Of a DNA stretch of 64,000 bases, positions 12,420 through 47,414 are shown piece after piece. Below the pieces are notes generated by a model that saw nothing but the letters and a program-made list of their open reading frames with translations, was not told the origin of the DNA and searched no databases. The stretch is from assembly GCF_008271655.1 (NCBI RefSeq), contig NZ_VKKX01000011.1, positions 558,001 through 622,000 of the forward strand. The letters run 5' to 3'. A program made the translations under genes and the position numbers. Source of the DNA: Gemmobacter caeruleus. GTDB lineage: Bacteria; Pseudomonadota; Alphaproteobacteria; Rhodobacterales; Rhodobacteraceae. Position 1 is the stretch's first letter. Each line of letters starts with the position of its first letter.

Positions 12420-12455
12420 CCTCCCCGCGGCGCGGGCGTAACCCGTGCCATCGAA

Positions 12456-12501
12456 CCGTCACAACGGCTTCCTGGCGTGACGGGGATCAATCAACGGAGC
12501 A
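12456..12501 (+). promoter_or_regulatory. SAM/SAH-type riboswitch controlling metK
   Basis: The leader holds a 7-bp stem, CCGTCAC (12456-12462) with GTGACGG (12477-12483), enclosing ACGGCTTCCTGGC. This matches the published SAM/SAH riboswitch core as I remember it. Downstream GGAGC (12496-12500) can pair with GCTTCC in the loop (12467-12472), forming the class's H-type pseudoknot. That same GGAGC is the Shine-Dalgarno sequence of metK, 8 nt before its ATG. Ligand binding should therefore hide the ribosome site and repress metK when SAM is high. The class is known mainly from Rhodobacterales metK leaders. Confidence 0.9.
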
Positions 12502-12508
12502 CTTCCCC

Positions 12509-13675
12509 ATGAGCAGACTGAACTACGTCTTCACCTCGGAATCCGTTTCCGAGGGGCACCCTGACAAGGTGTGCGACCGCATCTCGGATTCGGTGCTGGA
12601 TGCCTTCCTGACCGAGGAACCCAATGCCCGCGTCGCCTGTGAAACCTTCGCCACCACCAATCGTGTCGTCGTCGGCGGCGAGGTCGGGCTGTCCGACAAG
12701 AAGAAGCTGCGGGAGATGCTGGACGGCGTCGAACAGATCGTGCGCGATTGCGTGCGCGATATCGGCTATGAACAGGACGAGTTTCACTGGGCCACGCTGA
12801 AGGTGAAGAACCACCTGCACAAGCAATCGGCCCATATCGCCCAGGGCGTCGATCGTGATGGCGCGGGCGATCAGGGCATCATGTTCGGTTACGCCTGCCG
12901 CGAGACGCCGGAACTGATGCCGGCGCCGATCCAATACGCCCATGCCATCCTGCGCCGCCTGGCCGAGGTGCGCAAATCCGGCCAGGAGCCGACGCTGCGC
13001 CCGGATGCCAAATCGCAGCTCTCGCTGCGCTATGAAGGCGGCAAGCCGGTCGAGGTGACCTCGATCGTGCTCTCGACCCAGCATGAAAGCGAAAGCCAGA
13101 CCTCCGACGATATCCGCGCCATCGTGGAACCCTATATCCGCGAAGTGCTGCCCTCGGGCTGGATCACCGACAAGACCGAATGGTGGGTGAACCCGACCGG
13201 CACCTTCGTGATCGGCGGGCCGGATGGCGATGCCGGGCTGACCGGGCGCAAGATCATCGTCGATACCTATGGCGGCGCGGCCCCGCATGGCGGCGGCGCG
13301 TTTTCGGGGAAAGACCCGACCAAGGTGGACCGCTCGGCCGCCTATGCCGCGCGCTATCTGGCCAAGAACGTGGTCGCCGCGGGCCTCGCGGATCGCTGCA
13401 CGCTTCAGGTCAGCTATGCGATCGGCGTGGCGAAACCGCTGTCGATCTATGTCGATACCCATGGCACGGGCCAGGTGGACGAGGCCGTGATCGAACGCGC
13501 CGTGGCGGAGTGCATGGACCTGACCCCGCGCGGCATCCGTGAACACCTGGCGCTGAACCGCCCGATCTACGCCCGGACGGCCGCCTATGGCCATTTCGGC
13601 CGCGCCCCCGAAGCCGATGGCGGCTTCAGCTGGGAACGGACGGATCTGGTCGAGGCGCTGAAAAAGGCGGTGTGA
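12509..13675 (+). CDS. metK: S-adenosylmethionine synthetase
   Basis: MetK makes SAM from ATP and methionine. The 388-residue protein shows the N-terminal [14 protein letters not shown]. The hexapeptide-like [11 protein letters not shown] and the P-loop-like [16 protein letters not shown] are also present. Translation starts at 12509 behind the riboswitch-embedded GGAGC. A hairpin terminator follows. In relatives I remember, trmB lies directly downstream; here it does not, and a gene-free repeat region follows. Confidence 0.98.
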
Positions 13676-41584: not shown

Positions 41585-41606
41585 AGGATATTTTTGAACA
41601 GATGAA
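41585..41606 (+). repeat. Dispersed intergenic repeat, copy 1
   Basis: The core GGATATTTTTGAACAGATGA is shared exactly with 45510-45529, and both copies follow a GC-rich hairpin. This copy runs into the glcE start: the ATG at 41602 lies inside it. Confidence 0.75.
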
Positions 41607-43972: not shown

Positions 43973-44021
43973 ACGCGCGATTTGCCACAATCCTGCCGGA
44001 TCAACGGGGTAATACGGGCGG

Positions 44022-44852
44022 ATGATGCGCGTTTTCGGTTTGATCCTGACCATCTGCCTGAGCCTTGGCCTGCCGGCCGGGGCGCAGGATGCACGGCTCA
44101 AGAGCCTGGAATCCAGCGATATGGGGCGAGGATGGGAGGCGGTCGGGCGGCTCAATCTGGGCACGCGCGGCTTTTGCACCGGGGCTCTGATCGCGCCGGA
44201 TCAGGTGCTGACGGCGGGGCATTGCCTGTTCGACAAGGAAACCGGCGCCCGCATCGACCCGACGACGATCGAGTTTCTGGCCGGCTGGCGCAATGGTCGG
44301 GCGGTGGCCTATCGCCGGGTGAAACGCGCGGTCGCGCATCCCGACTATGTCTATAGCGGCGGCGATCTGGAGGCGCGGGTGCCTTTTGACGTGGCGCTGT
44401 TGCATCTGGATCAGCCGATCCGGCTTCCCTCGGTTCGGCCCTATGATACCGCGCCGGAGCCGCGGCGCGGCGCGCAGGTCGGCGTCGTGTCCTATGCCCG
44501 CGACCGCGCCGAGGCGCCGTCGCTGCAAGAGGTCTGCGAGGTGCTGGCGCGGCGGTCGGACATGCTGATGCTGAGCTGCGACGTGGATTTCGGATCCTCC
44601 GGCGCGCCGATCTTTTCGCTGGAGGGCGGCGTGGCGCGGGTGGTCTCGGTCGTGTCGGCCAAGGCCGAGATGGACGGGCGCAAGGTGGCGCTTGGCACCG
44701 CGCTGGAGGCGCCGCTGGCGGTGCTGCGCGCGGCGCTCTTGCGCGAGGAGGGGCCCTTGCGCGCCAGCGGCGCCAGTGTGTTGCGCGGTGGGGCGGCGGG
44801 GGCAGGCACGGCGGGCGGCGGCGGGGCCAAATTCCTGCGCCCCGGCGGCTGA
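44022..44852 (+). CDS. Secreted trypsin-like serine protease
   Basis: The 276-residue precursor has a signal peptide ending about A21. The S1-fold triad is visible: His67 in L-T-A-G-H-C, Asp123 in D-V-A-L-L and Ser193 in D-F-G-S-S-G-A-P. The nucleophile motif is G-S-S-G-A-P rather than G-D-S-G-G-P, as in V8/glutamyl-endopeptidase-like bacterial members. A Gly/Ala-rich C-terminal tail (about 255-276) looks disordered. It probably acts in the periplasm or outside the cell. A second ATG one codon later is an equal start candidate. Confidence 0.88.
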   Translation: MMRVFGLILTICLSLGLPAGAQDARLKSLESSDMGRGWEAVGRLNLGTRGFCTGALIAPDQVLTAGHCLFDKETGARIDPTTIEFLAGWRNGRAVAYRRVKRAVAHPDYVYSGGDLEARVPFDVALLHLDQPIRLPSVRPYDTAPEPRRGAQVGVVSYARDRAEAPSLQEVCEVLARRSDMLMLSCDVDFGSSGAPIFSLEGGVARVVSVVSAKAEMDGRKVALGTALEAPLAVLRAALLREEGPLRASGASVLRGGAAGAGTAGGGGAKFLRPGG

Positions 44853-44899
44853 ACGCCCTCCCCCTTGAAACCACGATCCCCATTGCACAGATGAGGGGA

Positions 44900-44984
44900 G
44901 CCGGGCGCCATGACGGGCCCGGCTTCAACCCGAAGGCCCGCCCGGATGCGGGGGGCCTGATTGCATCGCTCAATGAGGATGACC
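44900..44984 (+). promoter_or_regulatory. ROSE-like RNA thermometer in the hsp20 leader
   Basis: Three consecutive hairpins can form. They are GCCGGGC/GCCCGGC (44900-44906 with 44917-44923), GGCCC/GGGCC (44935-44939 with 44953-44957), and a last one, CATC-G-CTC (44964-44971) with GAGGATG (44975-44981) around AAT. The last hairpin contains TCGCT, which fits the ROSE consensus UYGCU. It leaves a bulged G opposite the Shine-Dalgarno sequence and completely hides GAGGA, 5 nt before the ATG. This is the layout of ROSE elements that melt on heat shock and release translation of small heat-shock genes. Confidence 0.6.
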
Positions 44985-45437
44985 ATGCGTAATTTCGACC
45001 TGGCCCCGCTCTATCGTGCCACTGTGGGCTTTGACCGTATCGCCGATCTGATGGATCGCGTTCTGGCCGCCGATGTCGCCCAGCCGACCTATCCGCCCTA
45101 CAATATCGAAAAGACCGACGAGAATGCCTATCGCATCTCGATCGCGGTCGCGGGCTTCACGCCCGAGGAACTGAATGTCGAGGTGCGCGACGGGGCGCTG
45201 TTCGTCACCGCGCGCAAGGCCCCCGACGAGGCTGAGCGCAATTTCCTGCATCGCGGCATCGCCACCCGCGCCTTTGAGCGCCGCTTTGCCCTGGCCGATC
45301 ATGTGCGCGTCTCTGGTGCCAGCCATGAACATGGCATGCTGCATATCGACCTGGTGCGCGAGACGCCCGAGGCGCTGAAGCCCCGCCGGATCGAGATCGC
45401 CCGCGCCGCCGATCTGGTGGATGCGAAGGTGAACTGA
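44985..45437 (+). CDS. Small heat-shock protein, Hsp20 family
   Basis: This ATP-independent holdase chaperone has 150 residues, with an N-terminal R-N-F-D-L-A-P-L-Y-R-A-T-V-G-F-D-R segment (IbpA-like). An alpha-crystallin domain covers about 35-130 (Y-P-P-Y-N-I-E-K, I-S-I-A-V-A-G-F, F-L-H-R-G-I-A-x-R-A-F-E-R-R-F-A-L-A-D). A short P-R-R-I-E-I tail carries the I-x-I-type contact. Start 44985 has GAGGA 5 nt upstream, inside a ROSE-like hairpin. A terminator follows. Confidence 0.94.
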   Translation: MRNFDLAPLYRATVGFDRIADLMDRVLAADVAQPTYPPYNIEKTDENAYRISIAVAGFTPEELNVEVRDGALFVTARKAPDEAERNFLHRGIATRAFERRFALADHVRVSGASHEHGMLHIDLVRETPEALKPRRIEIARAADLVDAKVN

Positions 45438-45441
45438 TCGC

Positions 45442-45465
45442 AAAGGGCCGAACGCGCGGCCCTTT
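45442..45465 (+). terminator. Terminator of hsp20
   Basis: AAAGGGCCG (45442-45450) and CGGCCCTTT (45457-45465) pair perfectly around AACGCG, 4 nt after the stop. Confidence 0.8.
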
Positions 45466-45473
45466 GGCGGGCG

Positions 45474-45530
45474 CCGGAGGGGTTTTGCACCCCTCCGGAC
45501 CTCCCCGCAGGATATTTTTGAACAGATGAA
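45474..45530 (+). repeat. Dispersed intergenic repeat, copy 2, with leading hairpin
   Basis: A hairpin CCGGAGGGG/CCCCTCCGG (45474-45498) is followed by the same core as at 41585-41606 (GGATATTTTTGAACAGATGA at 45510-45529). The hairpin stems of the two copies differ, but the arrangement of hairpin plus core is the same. Confidence 0.75.
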
Positions 45531-45635
45531 GGACAGCGGCGAGAAGATGTGCGGAATCTGCGCCATTTGATCCGCGTCAAGGTGGGGGCGTCGGGGGTGG
45601 GCTAGGGTTTTACCGAAACGACGAAGGAGACACGC

Positions 45636-45872
45636 ATGTCGAACACCCCGCATGAGCTTGCCGAGGAATTTCCGGCGCAGGCGCTCAGGATTTCCGCGCT
45701 GAAGGAACAGGACGCGCATTTCGCCCGGTTGGTCGAGGAATATCACGAGATCAACCGCGCCGTGCATCGGGCCGAAACCCGGGTCGAGGCAGTGTCGGAT
45801 GAGCATGAGGCGGAGCTGCGCAAGAAGCGTGGCGCGCTGAAGGACCAGATCTGGCAGCGCATCAGCGCCTGA
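45636..45872 (+). CDS. YdcH/DUF465-family small protein
   Basis: The 78-residue, highly charged, mostly helical protein contains F-P-A-Q-A-L-R-I-S-A-L-K-E-Q-D-A-H-F-A-R-L-V-E-E-Y-H-E-I-N-R, the DUF465 pattern, ending L-K-K/R-x-R-G-x-L-K-D-Q-I. It probably forms a short antiparallel coiled coil in the cytosol. Function is unknown. GAAGGAG lies before the ATG and a strong terminator follows. Confidence 0.88.
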   Translation: MSNTPHELAEEFPAQALRISALKEQDAHFARLVEEYHEINRAVHRAETRVEAVSDEHEAELRKKRGALKDQIWQRISA

Positions 45873-45896
45873 TCGCGCGTCCTTTCCGCAGGAATA

Positions 45897-45921
45897 GGCC
45901 CGGCGCTGCCGGGCCTTTTTC
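45897..45921. terminator. Terminator after the DUF465 gene
   Basis: AGGCCCGGC (45897-45905) and GCCGGGCCT (45909-45917) flank GCT and are followed by TTTT. The site lies between converging genes and may also serve the leftward pccR. Confidence 0.88.
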
Positions 45922-45927
45922 ATGGCG

Positions 45928-47325
45928 TCATTCGGCGATCTGATAGGGCAGGATGCCGCGCTGATCGGGATCGACGCGCAGCCGCCGTTCCAGCGGCGGG
46001 ACCGAGCGTTGGTGGCAGTCGCGGCGTTCGCAGATGCGGCAGGAGATGCCGATCGGTTCAAAGGCGCCGCGCAGGTCCAGCCCGTCGGCATAGACCAGCG
46101 CATCGGCATGCTGCACCTCGCAGCCCAGCCCGATCGCATAGCGGCGCACCGGCGCATTGAAGCTGCCCCCGGGTTTGGTCACGTCGCGCGCGAGGCAGAG
46201 ATAGCGCACCCCGTCGGGGGTTTCGGCCAGCTGGCGCAGGAATTGCCCCGGGGTTTCAAAGGCGCGATGCACATTCCAGAGCGGGCAGGCCCCGCCGAAG
46301 CGGGCGAATTGCAGCCGCGTGGCGGAGTGGCGTTTGGTGATGGTGCCGGCCTGATCGACGCGCACGAAGAAGAAGGGGATGCCCTTGGCCCCCGGCCGTT
46401 GCAGGGTGGAGAGGCGATGCGCCACCTGTTCGATACTGGCGCCGAACAGGTCGGCCAGCCGTTCCAGATCGTGTCTTTCGTCCAGTGCCGCCTGCTGAAA
46501 CGCGCGATAGGGCAGCAGGGCCGCGCCGGCGAAATAGTTGGCCAGCCCGATCTTGGCGATGTCGCGGGCCTCGGGCGTGGCGAAACGGGCGAGATCGAGC
46601 GTCGCCTCCAGCAGGTCATCCTGTGTGGCGAGGGCGACCTGATAGAGCAACTGGAACCGCTGGGTTGGCCCCGAGGCACGGCCCGACACCGCAAGGCGCC
46701 GCGTGGCGGGGTCAAAGTGGCGCAATTGTCCGGTGTCGGAAAACTGCAAGTCGATACCGGCCTTTGACAGGGTATCTGTTGCGATGAAAAGCGGGTCTTT
46801 TCGGGTGCCTGCGGGCATTGCGTAATGTTCCGCGGCGCGGTCGATCGCATCAAGATAATTGTCGCAATAGTGAAAGAAATCGCGCACCTCCTCCCACGGG
46901 CTCGGGCGGAGGGCGGCGTCTTCGCGGCCCAGGGCCTCATCCAGCGAGGCCAGGCGTTCATGGGTTTGGCGATAGGCGCGGTGCAGGTCGAGAAAGGCCC
47001 GCGCCAGCGCCGGCGCGTTGGAAGCGGCCAGCCGCAGATCGGCCAAAGGCGGGCTGCCGCTCTGGAATACCGGATCGGCGAGGGCCTCGCGCATGTCCGA
47101 CACGATGCGTTCGGCATCGCCTGTGGTCAGTTCGGTCACGTCAAAGCCGAATTCCTGCACCAGCGACAGCACCACCGCAGCCGAGACCGGGCGGTGGTTG
47201 TTTTCCATCTGGTTGAGATAGGGCAGCGACACGCCCAGCTTGTCGGCAAAGGCCTTTTGCGTCACCCCCAGCCGCCCGCGCAATTCGCGCAGCTTCACCC
47301 CGGCATAGAGCTTTTGCGTGGTCAT
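45928..47325 (-). CDS. pccR: Short-chain fatty acyl-CoA regulator, PccR type
   Basis: The 465-residue regulator has an N-terminal XRE-type HTH (about 5-60, G-V-T-Q-K-A-F-A-D-K-L-G-V-S-L-P-Y-L-N-Q-M-E-N). A middle IrrE-like domain (about 165-290) and a C-terminal domain ending in C-R-I-C-E-R-R-D-C-H-Q-R follow, the ScfR/RamB/PccR architecture. In Rhodobacter, PccR senses propionyl-CoA-level metabolites and controls pccB. The start at 47325 follows AAAGGGAGGGG. TTTGCAAA-type sites lie in its own promoter and before pccB. Confidence 0.92.
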   Translation of the reverse strand: MTTQKLYAGVKLRELRGRLGVTQKAFADKLGVSLPYLNQMENNHRPVSAAVVLSLVQEFGFDVTELTTGDAERIVSDMREALADPVFQSGSPPLADLRLAASNAPALARAFLDLHRAYRQTHERLASLDEALGREDAALRPSPWEEVRDFFHYCDNYLDAIDRAAEHYAMPAGTRKDPLFIATDTLSKAGIDLQFSDTGQLRHFDPATRRLAVSGRASGPTQRFQLLYQVALATQDDLLEATLDLARFATPEARDIAKIGLANYFAGAALLPYRAFQQAALDERHDLERLADLFGASIEQVAHRLSTLQRPGAKGIPFFFVRVDQAGTITKRHSATRLQFARFGGACPLWNVHRAFETPGQFLRQLAETPDGVRYLCLARDVTKPGGSFNAPVRRYAIGLGCEVQHADALVYADGLDLRGAFEPIGISCRICERRDCHQRSVPPLERRLRVDPDQRGILPYQIAE

Positions 47326-47337
47326 ACTGCCCCTCCC

Positions 47338-47366
47338 TTTGCTAAAGAGCATGTCGCCTTTGCAAA
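47338..47366. promoter_or_regulatory. Putative PccR sites in the pccR promoter
   Basis: TTTGCTAA (47338-47345) and the palindrome TTTGCAAA (47359-47366) lie 13-41 bp upstream of the pccR start. The motif is the type I recall for PccR/RamB-family binding, so autoregulation is likely. Confidence 0.6.
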
Positions 47367-47414
47367 TCTTGCCTGTCAAGCTGCCGCAACAGGGTTAAGG
47401 CCGCGTAAACGGGA

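Follow-up and report, generated by a model that had tools for sequence, protein, structure and literature searches.

We examined a 64,000-nucleotide stretch of the Gemmobacter caeruleus genome (contig NZ_VKKX01000011.1, positions 558,001 to 622,000; hereafter the window) and focused on the leader of its small heat-shock gene, hsp20, for which an initial annotation had proposed a ROSE-like RNA thermometer. The hsp20 gene occupies 44985..45437 on the plus strand, as do the leader and promoter features described below, and encodes an IbpA-type small heat-shock protein (sHsp) of 150 amino acids (PF00011, E value 2e-18) that shares 51% identity with Escherichia coli IbpA over 138 alignment columns. 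Its closest named relatives belong to Gemmobacter species, with G. serpentinus at 92% identity, and the genus is placed taxonomically in the Paracoccaceae of the Rhodobacterales. The Shine-Dalgarno (SD) sequence GAGGA lies at 44975..44979, which leaves a gap of 5 nt to the start codon at 44985. The program that listed open reading frames (ORFs) had proposed a TTG start at 44961, with a frame spanning 44961-44984. In the orthologous leaders defined below, AGGA lies 4-8 nt upstream of the ATG in 191 of 206 cases, and the distances from a UYGCU motif to the ATG fall into the three reading frames as 64/69/72, with no preference. Because these distances are even across the three frames, we take the leader to be noncoding and the start codon to be 44985.

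The ROSE-like element corresponds to the hsp20 5' leader at 44901..44984, as delimited by its match to positions 1-94 of the Rfam ROSE model (RF00435) and by promoter spacing. The minimum free energy (MFE) fold of 44890-44995 consists of three serial hairpins at -52 kcal/mol, and shuffled versions of the segment gave -41.6 kcal/mol (standard deviation, sd, 3.8), which places the native sequence at a z score of -2.76, with 2 of 200 shuffles equally stable. Hairpin I spans 44895-44931 in this fold and has a conserved core at 44901..44922 (CCGGGC-[G44907]-CC-AUGAC-GG-GCCCGG, with the bulged base in brackets), hairpin II occupies 44934..44958 (AGGCCC-[G44940]-CCCG-GAUG-CGGG-GGGCCU), and hairpin III, the presumed thermosensor, occupies 44964..44981 (CAUC-[G44968]-CUC-AAU-GAG-GAUG), as indicated by the MFE fold and by leader comparison. 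All five SD bases are paired in hairpin III, where UC[G]CUC, i.e., TCGCT plus the following C, serves as the anti-SD strand and G44968 forms a single 5'-side bulge opposite the SD. The initial annotation had described three serial hairpins of which the last pairs the SD and leaves G44968 bulged, a description borne out by this fold and by the near-universal motif in the orthologous leaders. G44907 and G44940, which that annotation did not mention, are bulged in the same manner.

Judged by motif and conservation, hsp20 is preceded by a putative heat-shock (RpoH-type) promoter, with a -35 element, CTTGAAA, at 44864..44870 and a -10 element, CACAGAT, at 44886..44892, in which A44889 is position -12 and T44892 is position -9. 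In Rhodobacter sphaeroides, T-9 is reported to be critical for RpoHI (PMC3441632). A pattern of CTTG followed after 17 or 18 nt by at least 4 of the 7 letters of CCCAGAT was present in 195 of the 206 leaders, as opposed to 63 of 2060 mononucleotide shuffles, and among the 195 promoters A-12 occurs in 195 and T-9 in 194, although both letters are rewarded by the selection score. Promoter spacing predicts a transcript start at about 44899-44901 and a leader of 84 nt, close to the family median of 87. Because transcription would start at about 44901, the transcript leader would consist of the three hairpins and little else. A start downstream of 44960, which would have counted against the initial annotation, is unlikely given a conserved heat-shock-type promoter that points to a start near 44901.

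To compare leaders, we drew on a protein search of 149 genomes of the family, which matched 147; the best locus was used from 130 of these, the window included. Together with 80 named loci, these gave 210 leaders, reduced to 206 distinct ones by dropping L234, whose alignment starts at residue 3, and merging three exact duplicates, such that near-identical leaders of the same species may persist. The UYGCU...AGGA motif, whose G corresponds to the bulged G44968, is found in 205 of the 206 (200 with UCGCU and 5 with UUGCU). Within those 205, the loop-closing pair of hairpin III is C-G in 115, U-A in 23, U-G in 57, and another combination in 10 (Fisher p 6e-7), and an outer pair also covaries (Fisher p 5e-6), in tests that ignore relatedness. 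For hairpin I, we used an alignment (A2) of 40-nt pieces cut by their distance from the promoter and thus independent of the hairpin, with rows from 119 of the 129 family-genome leaders (promoter score of at least 4, UYGCU present). Standard pairs fill 94.6% of its 952 cells compared with 79.8% after shuffling, double changes occupy 151 cells compared with 53.9, and covariation is 0.530 compared with 0.242 (sd 0.012) for shuffled and at most 0.210 for slid alignments; none of 500 shuffles reached any of the three native values. Changes on both sides occur in 7 of 8 pairs; this measure is weaker, and 13 of 500 shuffles attained it. RNAalifold, applied to 37 leaders that are mostly close relatives, recovered hairpins I and III with 5 of 15 pairs compensated and did not resolve hairpin II on that alignment. 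A further alignment (A3) is of low quality along the 3' strand of hairpin II, and the pairs of this hairpin were therefore taken from MFE folds, in which each of them is standard by construction. Within the G. caeruleus genome, a pattern that joins UYGCU, SD, and ATG has 8 matches, which include both hsp20 leaders of the genome, compared with 5 for the reversed pattern.

The bulged G is a repeated feature of these leaders. We scanned 100 nt of each leader for modules with a single unpaired G on the 5' side, an outer stem of at least 4 pairs, an inner stem of at least 2, and at least 7 pairs in total. Three non-overlapping modules were found in 151 of 206 leaders, two in 53, and one in 2, whereas none of 1030 dinucleotide shuffles yielded three modules and 1.1% yielded two. 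Control scans that sought another bulged letter, a 3'-side bulge, or an unbulged hairpin detected three modules in no leader and two in no more than 5 of 206. Being greedy, the scan let through a number of modules that are implausible, L040 and L045 providing examples, an issue that the shuffles and the other-bulge controls address. Across the family, the bulged Gs cluster mainly 15-24, 40-59, and 70-89 nt upstream of the ATG; those of the window lie at -78, -45, and -17, about 30 nt apart. When the pieces were folded separately, a 5'-bulged G appeared in the MFE fold of 92 of 119 pieces for hairpin I and 99 of 119 for hairpin II, compared with 25 of 595 and 31 of 595 mononucleotide shuffles, respectively. 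In the aligned pieces, no column other than the bulged G of hairpin I is invariant (119 of 119); the bulged G of hairpin II is present in 117 of 119.

RF00435 aligns over its full length to 44901-44991, which is the top ROSE match of the genome (E 0.071). Throughout the order, the model has a match above its cut-off in 2 of 196 genomes and a match with E up to 0.1 in 23 of 196, counts that are lower bounds because the stricter filters used also lost the match of the window itself. By BLAST, an hsp20 relative lies directly 3' of 22 of the 23 order-wide matches, with L035 as the exception, and none was found by this means at the ROSE-matched loci L258 and L264 either. The cut-off of 45 bits excludes 17 of 18 class-wide matches with E up to 0.01 and 21 of the 23 order-wide matches. 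Among the class-wide matches, 16 of 18 were read for modules, with three in 7, two in 7, one in 1, and none in 1; L254, a class-wide match, carries three. We also built a model, R1, from an alignment of leaders (A1), which matched 61 of 289 class genomes at E up to 0.01. Of its 30 best loci, 26 come from 20 other families, and 24 of these adjoin hsp20, with three modules in 20, two in 3, and one in 1. The remaining two are both ROSE-like leaders: L300, which is the same place as L259, has two modules, and L281, judged from its leader alone, has three. Because R1 models the same hairpins I and III, its loci lean towards the three-module design. The bulged-G design is widespread beyond the family, albeit less complete there. 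In the G. caeruleus genome, R1 found nothing else convincing, the next best match scoring 15.9 bits (E 4.5).

The genome encodes a second hsp20 (L273/L241), on the minus strand of contig 12 around 440075-440099. Its leader contains two hairpins, CGGC[G]CCC-GAC-GGG-GCCG and TGTC[G]CTT-TTCC-AAG-GACA, the latter of which covers the SD. Neither Rfam ROSE nor R1 listed this leader within the genome (both at E up to 10), and R1 is therefore no complete screen, since it missed a two-hairpin paralogue leader. In a scan of the nine second genes among the matches listed, 8 have a [G]CC hairpin and a UGUC[G]CUU hairpin; in the ninth, L267, the SD hairpin failed the scan, and UCGCU and AAAGGAC are present. 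The ROSE-like thermometers of Pseudomonas ibpA genes are short, combining a stable hairpin on the 5' side with one on the 3' side that melts (PMC3669281), as opposed to the three hairpins of the window leader, such that the second hsp20 leader is their closer analogue.

The window leader displays the traits of a ROSE-like element, namely motif-SD pairing in the 3'-most hairpin, an unpaired G opposite the SD, and a 5' untranslated region (5'UTR) with 2-4 serial hairpins. In ROSE1, a G-G pair is reported at the G opposite the SD. With RF00435, the leader has in common its full-model alignment, an unpaired G in the model's hairpin I, pairing of UYGCU with the SD, and an sHsp gene on the 3' side; it differs by UCGCU in place of the consensus UUGCU, and its outer stem is CAUC/GAUG in contrast to the longer CCAUGUU/GAUAUGG type of other alphaproteobacterial ROSE matches. 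In the published definition, the U(U/C)GCU motif of a ROSE-like element pairs with the SD in the hairpin nearest the 3' end, more than 40 candidates have been predicted in alpha- and gammaproteobacteria, and E. coli ibpA is among the best-studied examples (PMC3669281). The E. coli leader shares with the window a homologous protein, UCGCU, a hairpin I of AGGACGC[G]CC-UGAU-GG with its G at -79 (-78 in the window), and a hairpin II of GACCU[G]UCCA-UUG-UGGA with its G at -50 (-45 in the window). However, neither the scan nor the MFE fold recovered a bulged-G SD hairpin in E. coli, whereas the window has one with its G at -17. The initial annotation regarded a ROSE element in the Rhodobacterales as an extension of the class, which is not new because the ibpA and hspD genes of Nautella R11, a member of the Roseobacter group, are reported in print to be preceded by ROSE-like motifs (PMC3230580, 2011). 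The two genomes agree in order, gene type, and the presence of two sHsp genes, although the Nautella report, in the part of the paper drawn on here, is a one-sentence statement without structure, alignment, or counts (PMC3230580).

Taking the evidence together, we consider it very probable that hsp20 translation is controlled by a ROSE-type RNA thermometer of three hairpins at 44901-44984, with presumed melting and presumed dependence on RpoHI. The initial proposal of such an element before hsp20 is one to which sequence, Rfam alignment, homologues, and covariation all point, and its support is comparative: conserved structure, covariation in hairpin I, SD pairing, the promoter motif, and full-length resemblance to ROSE. 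An RpoHI-like heat-shock sigma factor would transcribe hsp20 from about 44901. Hairpin III would bury the SD against UC[G]CUC at growth temperature, resulting in little Hsp20, and would open gradually upon warming while hairpins I and II remain folded, which would permit ribosomes to bind. With less certainty, and at somewhat under even odds, Hsp20 may in addition repress its own translation by binding the leader through R95, by analogy with E. coli IbpA and its R93. In isolation at 37 C, hairpin III is predicted to be the weakest at -5.5 kcal/mol, with -17.7 for hairpin I and -20.0 for hairpin II. The modelled probability that the SD is unpaired rises from 0.03 at 30 C to 0.11 at 42 C, with hairpins I and II staying closed. 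A modest modelled rise is also seen in 6 of 8 Rfam-detected ROSE leaders (e.g., 0.045 to 0.089 in L251); the exceptions are L253, which is more open throughout, and L248, which shows a slight fall and for which an internal ATG was possibly taken. The median ratio of modelled SD opening at 42 C to that at 30 C is 1.5 in the family compared with 1.06 for 23 control ORFs of the window. These energy models agree with a thermometer without proving it.

Several results weigh against this reading. The modelled opening is small, with the SD of the window unpaired at a probability of only 0.11 at 42 C, and the family medians are 0.13 at 30 C and 0.18 at 42 C. A nearly closed SD (at most 0.06 at 30 C) is predicted in only 33% of family leaders, compared with 13% of control ORFs. 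In whole-leader MFE folds, full pairing between the SD and the motif region occurs in 103, 109, and 108 of 205 leaders at 25, 37, and 42 C, respectively, and because this count is steady, the folding programs show no switch. One further hairpin III pair showed no covariation (p 0.17). The leader scores 27.6 bits with RF00435, under the gathering score of 45, and we class the element as ROSE-like rather than as an Rfam member. When matches with E up to 10 are admitted, the ROSE model responds in 3 of 14 control genomes as well, in none above the cut-off, which indicates that weak ROSE scores alone mean little. Finally, L018 (genome G111) is the sole leader of the 206 without UYGCU; it has GATTGCCTGATGAGGAT before the ATG, keeps the CTTG promoter and the SD, and is a candidate for natural loss.

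The alternatives must be set against the same observations. It is highly improbable that the hairpins arise by chance from a GC-rich sequence or from coding constraint in a 5'-extended frame: the region is indeed GC-rich and a TTG-started frame covers 44961-44984, but the z score of the fold, the covariation in hairpin I, the absence of a frame preference, and the contrast between family leaders and shuffles in three-module counts (151 of 206 versus 0 of 1030) all speak against such an origin. The slight modelled SD opening between 30 and 42 C and MFE folds that do not switch would also be expected of an ordinary stable leader that protects the mRNA or tunes translation without sensing temperature. 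We regard this as very unlikely, given that the UYGCU/SD geometry is near-universal at hsp20, the promoter is of the heat-shock type, and the leader resembles ROSE.

A third explanation holds that the leader is mainly a site of autorepression, to which Hsp20 binds until titrated off by aggregates, such that temperature acts via the protein rather than via melting in hairpin III. E. coli IbpA is reported to bind its own 5'UTR and to repress its own translation, which requires R93, a residue that cannot be replaced, as well as an aromatic residue at position 34 (PMC10474464, 2023). R95 and Y36 of the window protein align with R93 and Y34; the arginine is kept in all 206 orthologues and the tyrosine in 205 of them, and E. 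coli IbpB, which lacks self-repression activity, has Q at the R93 position. Nor does melting alone explain why bulged Gs are conserved in hairpins I and II, which are stable. However, pairing of UYGCU with the SD in hairpin III is a requirement of a thermometer, E. coli ibpA is reported to be under both controls, and the second hsp20 of the genome carries both residues too. The residues may also be kept for other reasons, since chaperone activity is reported to be partly impaired in E. coli IbpA-R93A (PMC10474464). Autorepression as the main function is therefore improbable, and a temperature-sensing hairpin III remains our preferred explanation. Because hairpins I and II do not melt, their bulged Gs need an explanation beyond melting, and we propose that the bulged-G hairpins may form part of a candidate Hsp20 binding site; the part of PMC10474464 drawn on here names no leader bases recognised by IbpA. 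More simply, the bulged Gs may aid folding or be a legacy of the duplication of a single module. More speculative, and in our view rather unlikely, is the general idea that ROSE leaders of alpha- and gammaproteobacteria are tandem arrays of a bulged-G module that recurs about every 30 nt, in which the last is the thermometer and the first two, which stay folded, are a platform recognised by the sHsp of the adjoining gene, such that the leader senses both temperature and free chaperone.

Other features of the window and genome were recorded in passing. Downstream of hsp20 lie a DUF465 gene (45636-45872), a terminator-like GC hairpin with a T run behind it (about 45897-45921, +), and a convergent gene (45928-47379, -) for a ScfR-type short-chain fatty acyl-CoA regulator (PF09856, PF06114, and a helix-turn-helix domain). 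Weak Rfam matches other than ROSE within 44000-46000 were set aside, as all fall below their own cut-offs: most of those at 45725-45940 (+) overlap the terminator-like hairpin, which attracts several small RNA families, and the remainder (M23, hepatitis delta virus (HDV) ribozyme, tfoR, two small nucleolar RNAs, and others) are likewise under cut-off. A second genome match of RF00435 (C34, 18.1 bits, E 5.3) was also dropped, as it lies among ORFs none of which was recognised as hsp20. Elsewhere in the window, a SAM-SAH riboswitch (RF01727, 59.2 bits) is located at 12453-12501 (+), just 5' of a gene that ends at 13675 and whose translation resembles, by eye, S-adenosylmethionine synthetase (metK). 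A repeat, AGGATATTTNNNNNCAGATGAA, occurs at 41585-41606 and 45509-45530 (+) and has 96 matches in the genome (51 forward and 45 reverse), compared with 0 for its reversed control; 15 facing +/- pairs, whose members start 37-44 nt from each other, account for 30 of these matches.

As an element, the hsp20 leader is ordinary, being by our reading a conserved RNA thermometer that falls short of the Rfam threshold in almost every Rhodobacterales genome searched. What role the 5' hairpins play in ROSE-like elements has been described as not fully understood (PMC3669281, 2013). The possible importance of the leader resides in its conserved, repeated bulged G, which may bear on what those 5' hairpins do and on which bases IbpA recognises.
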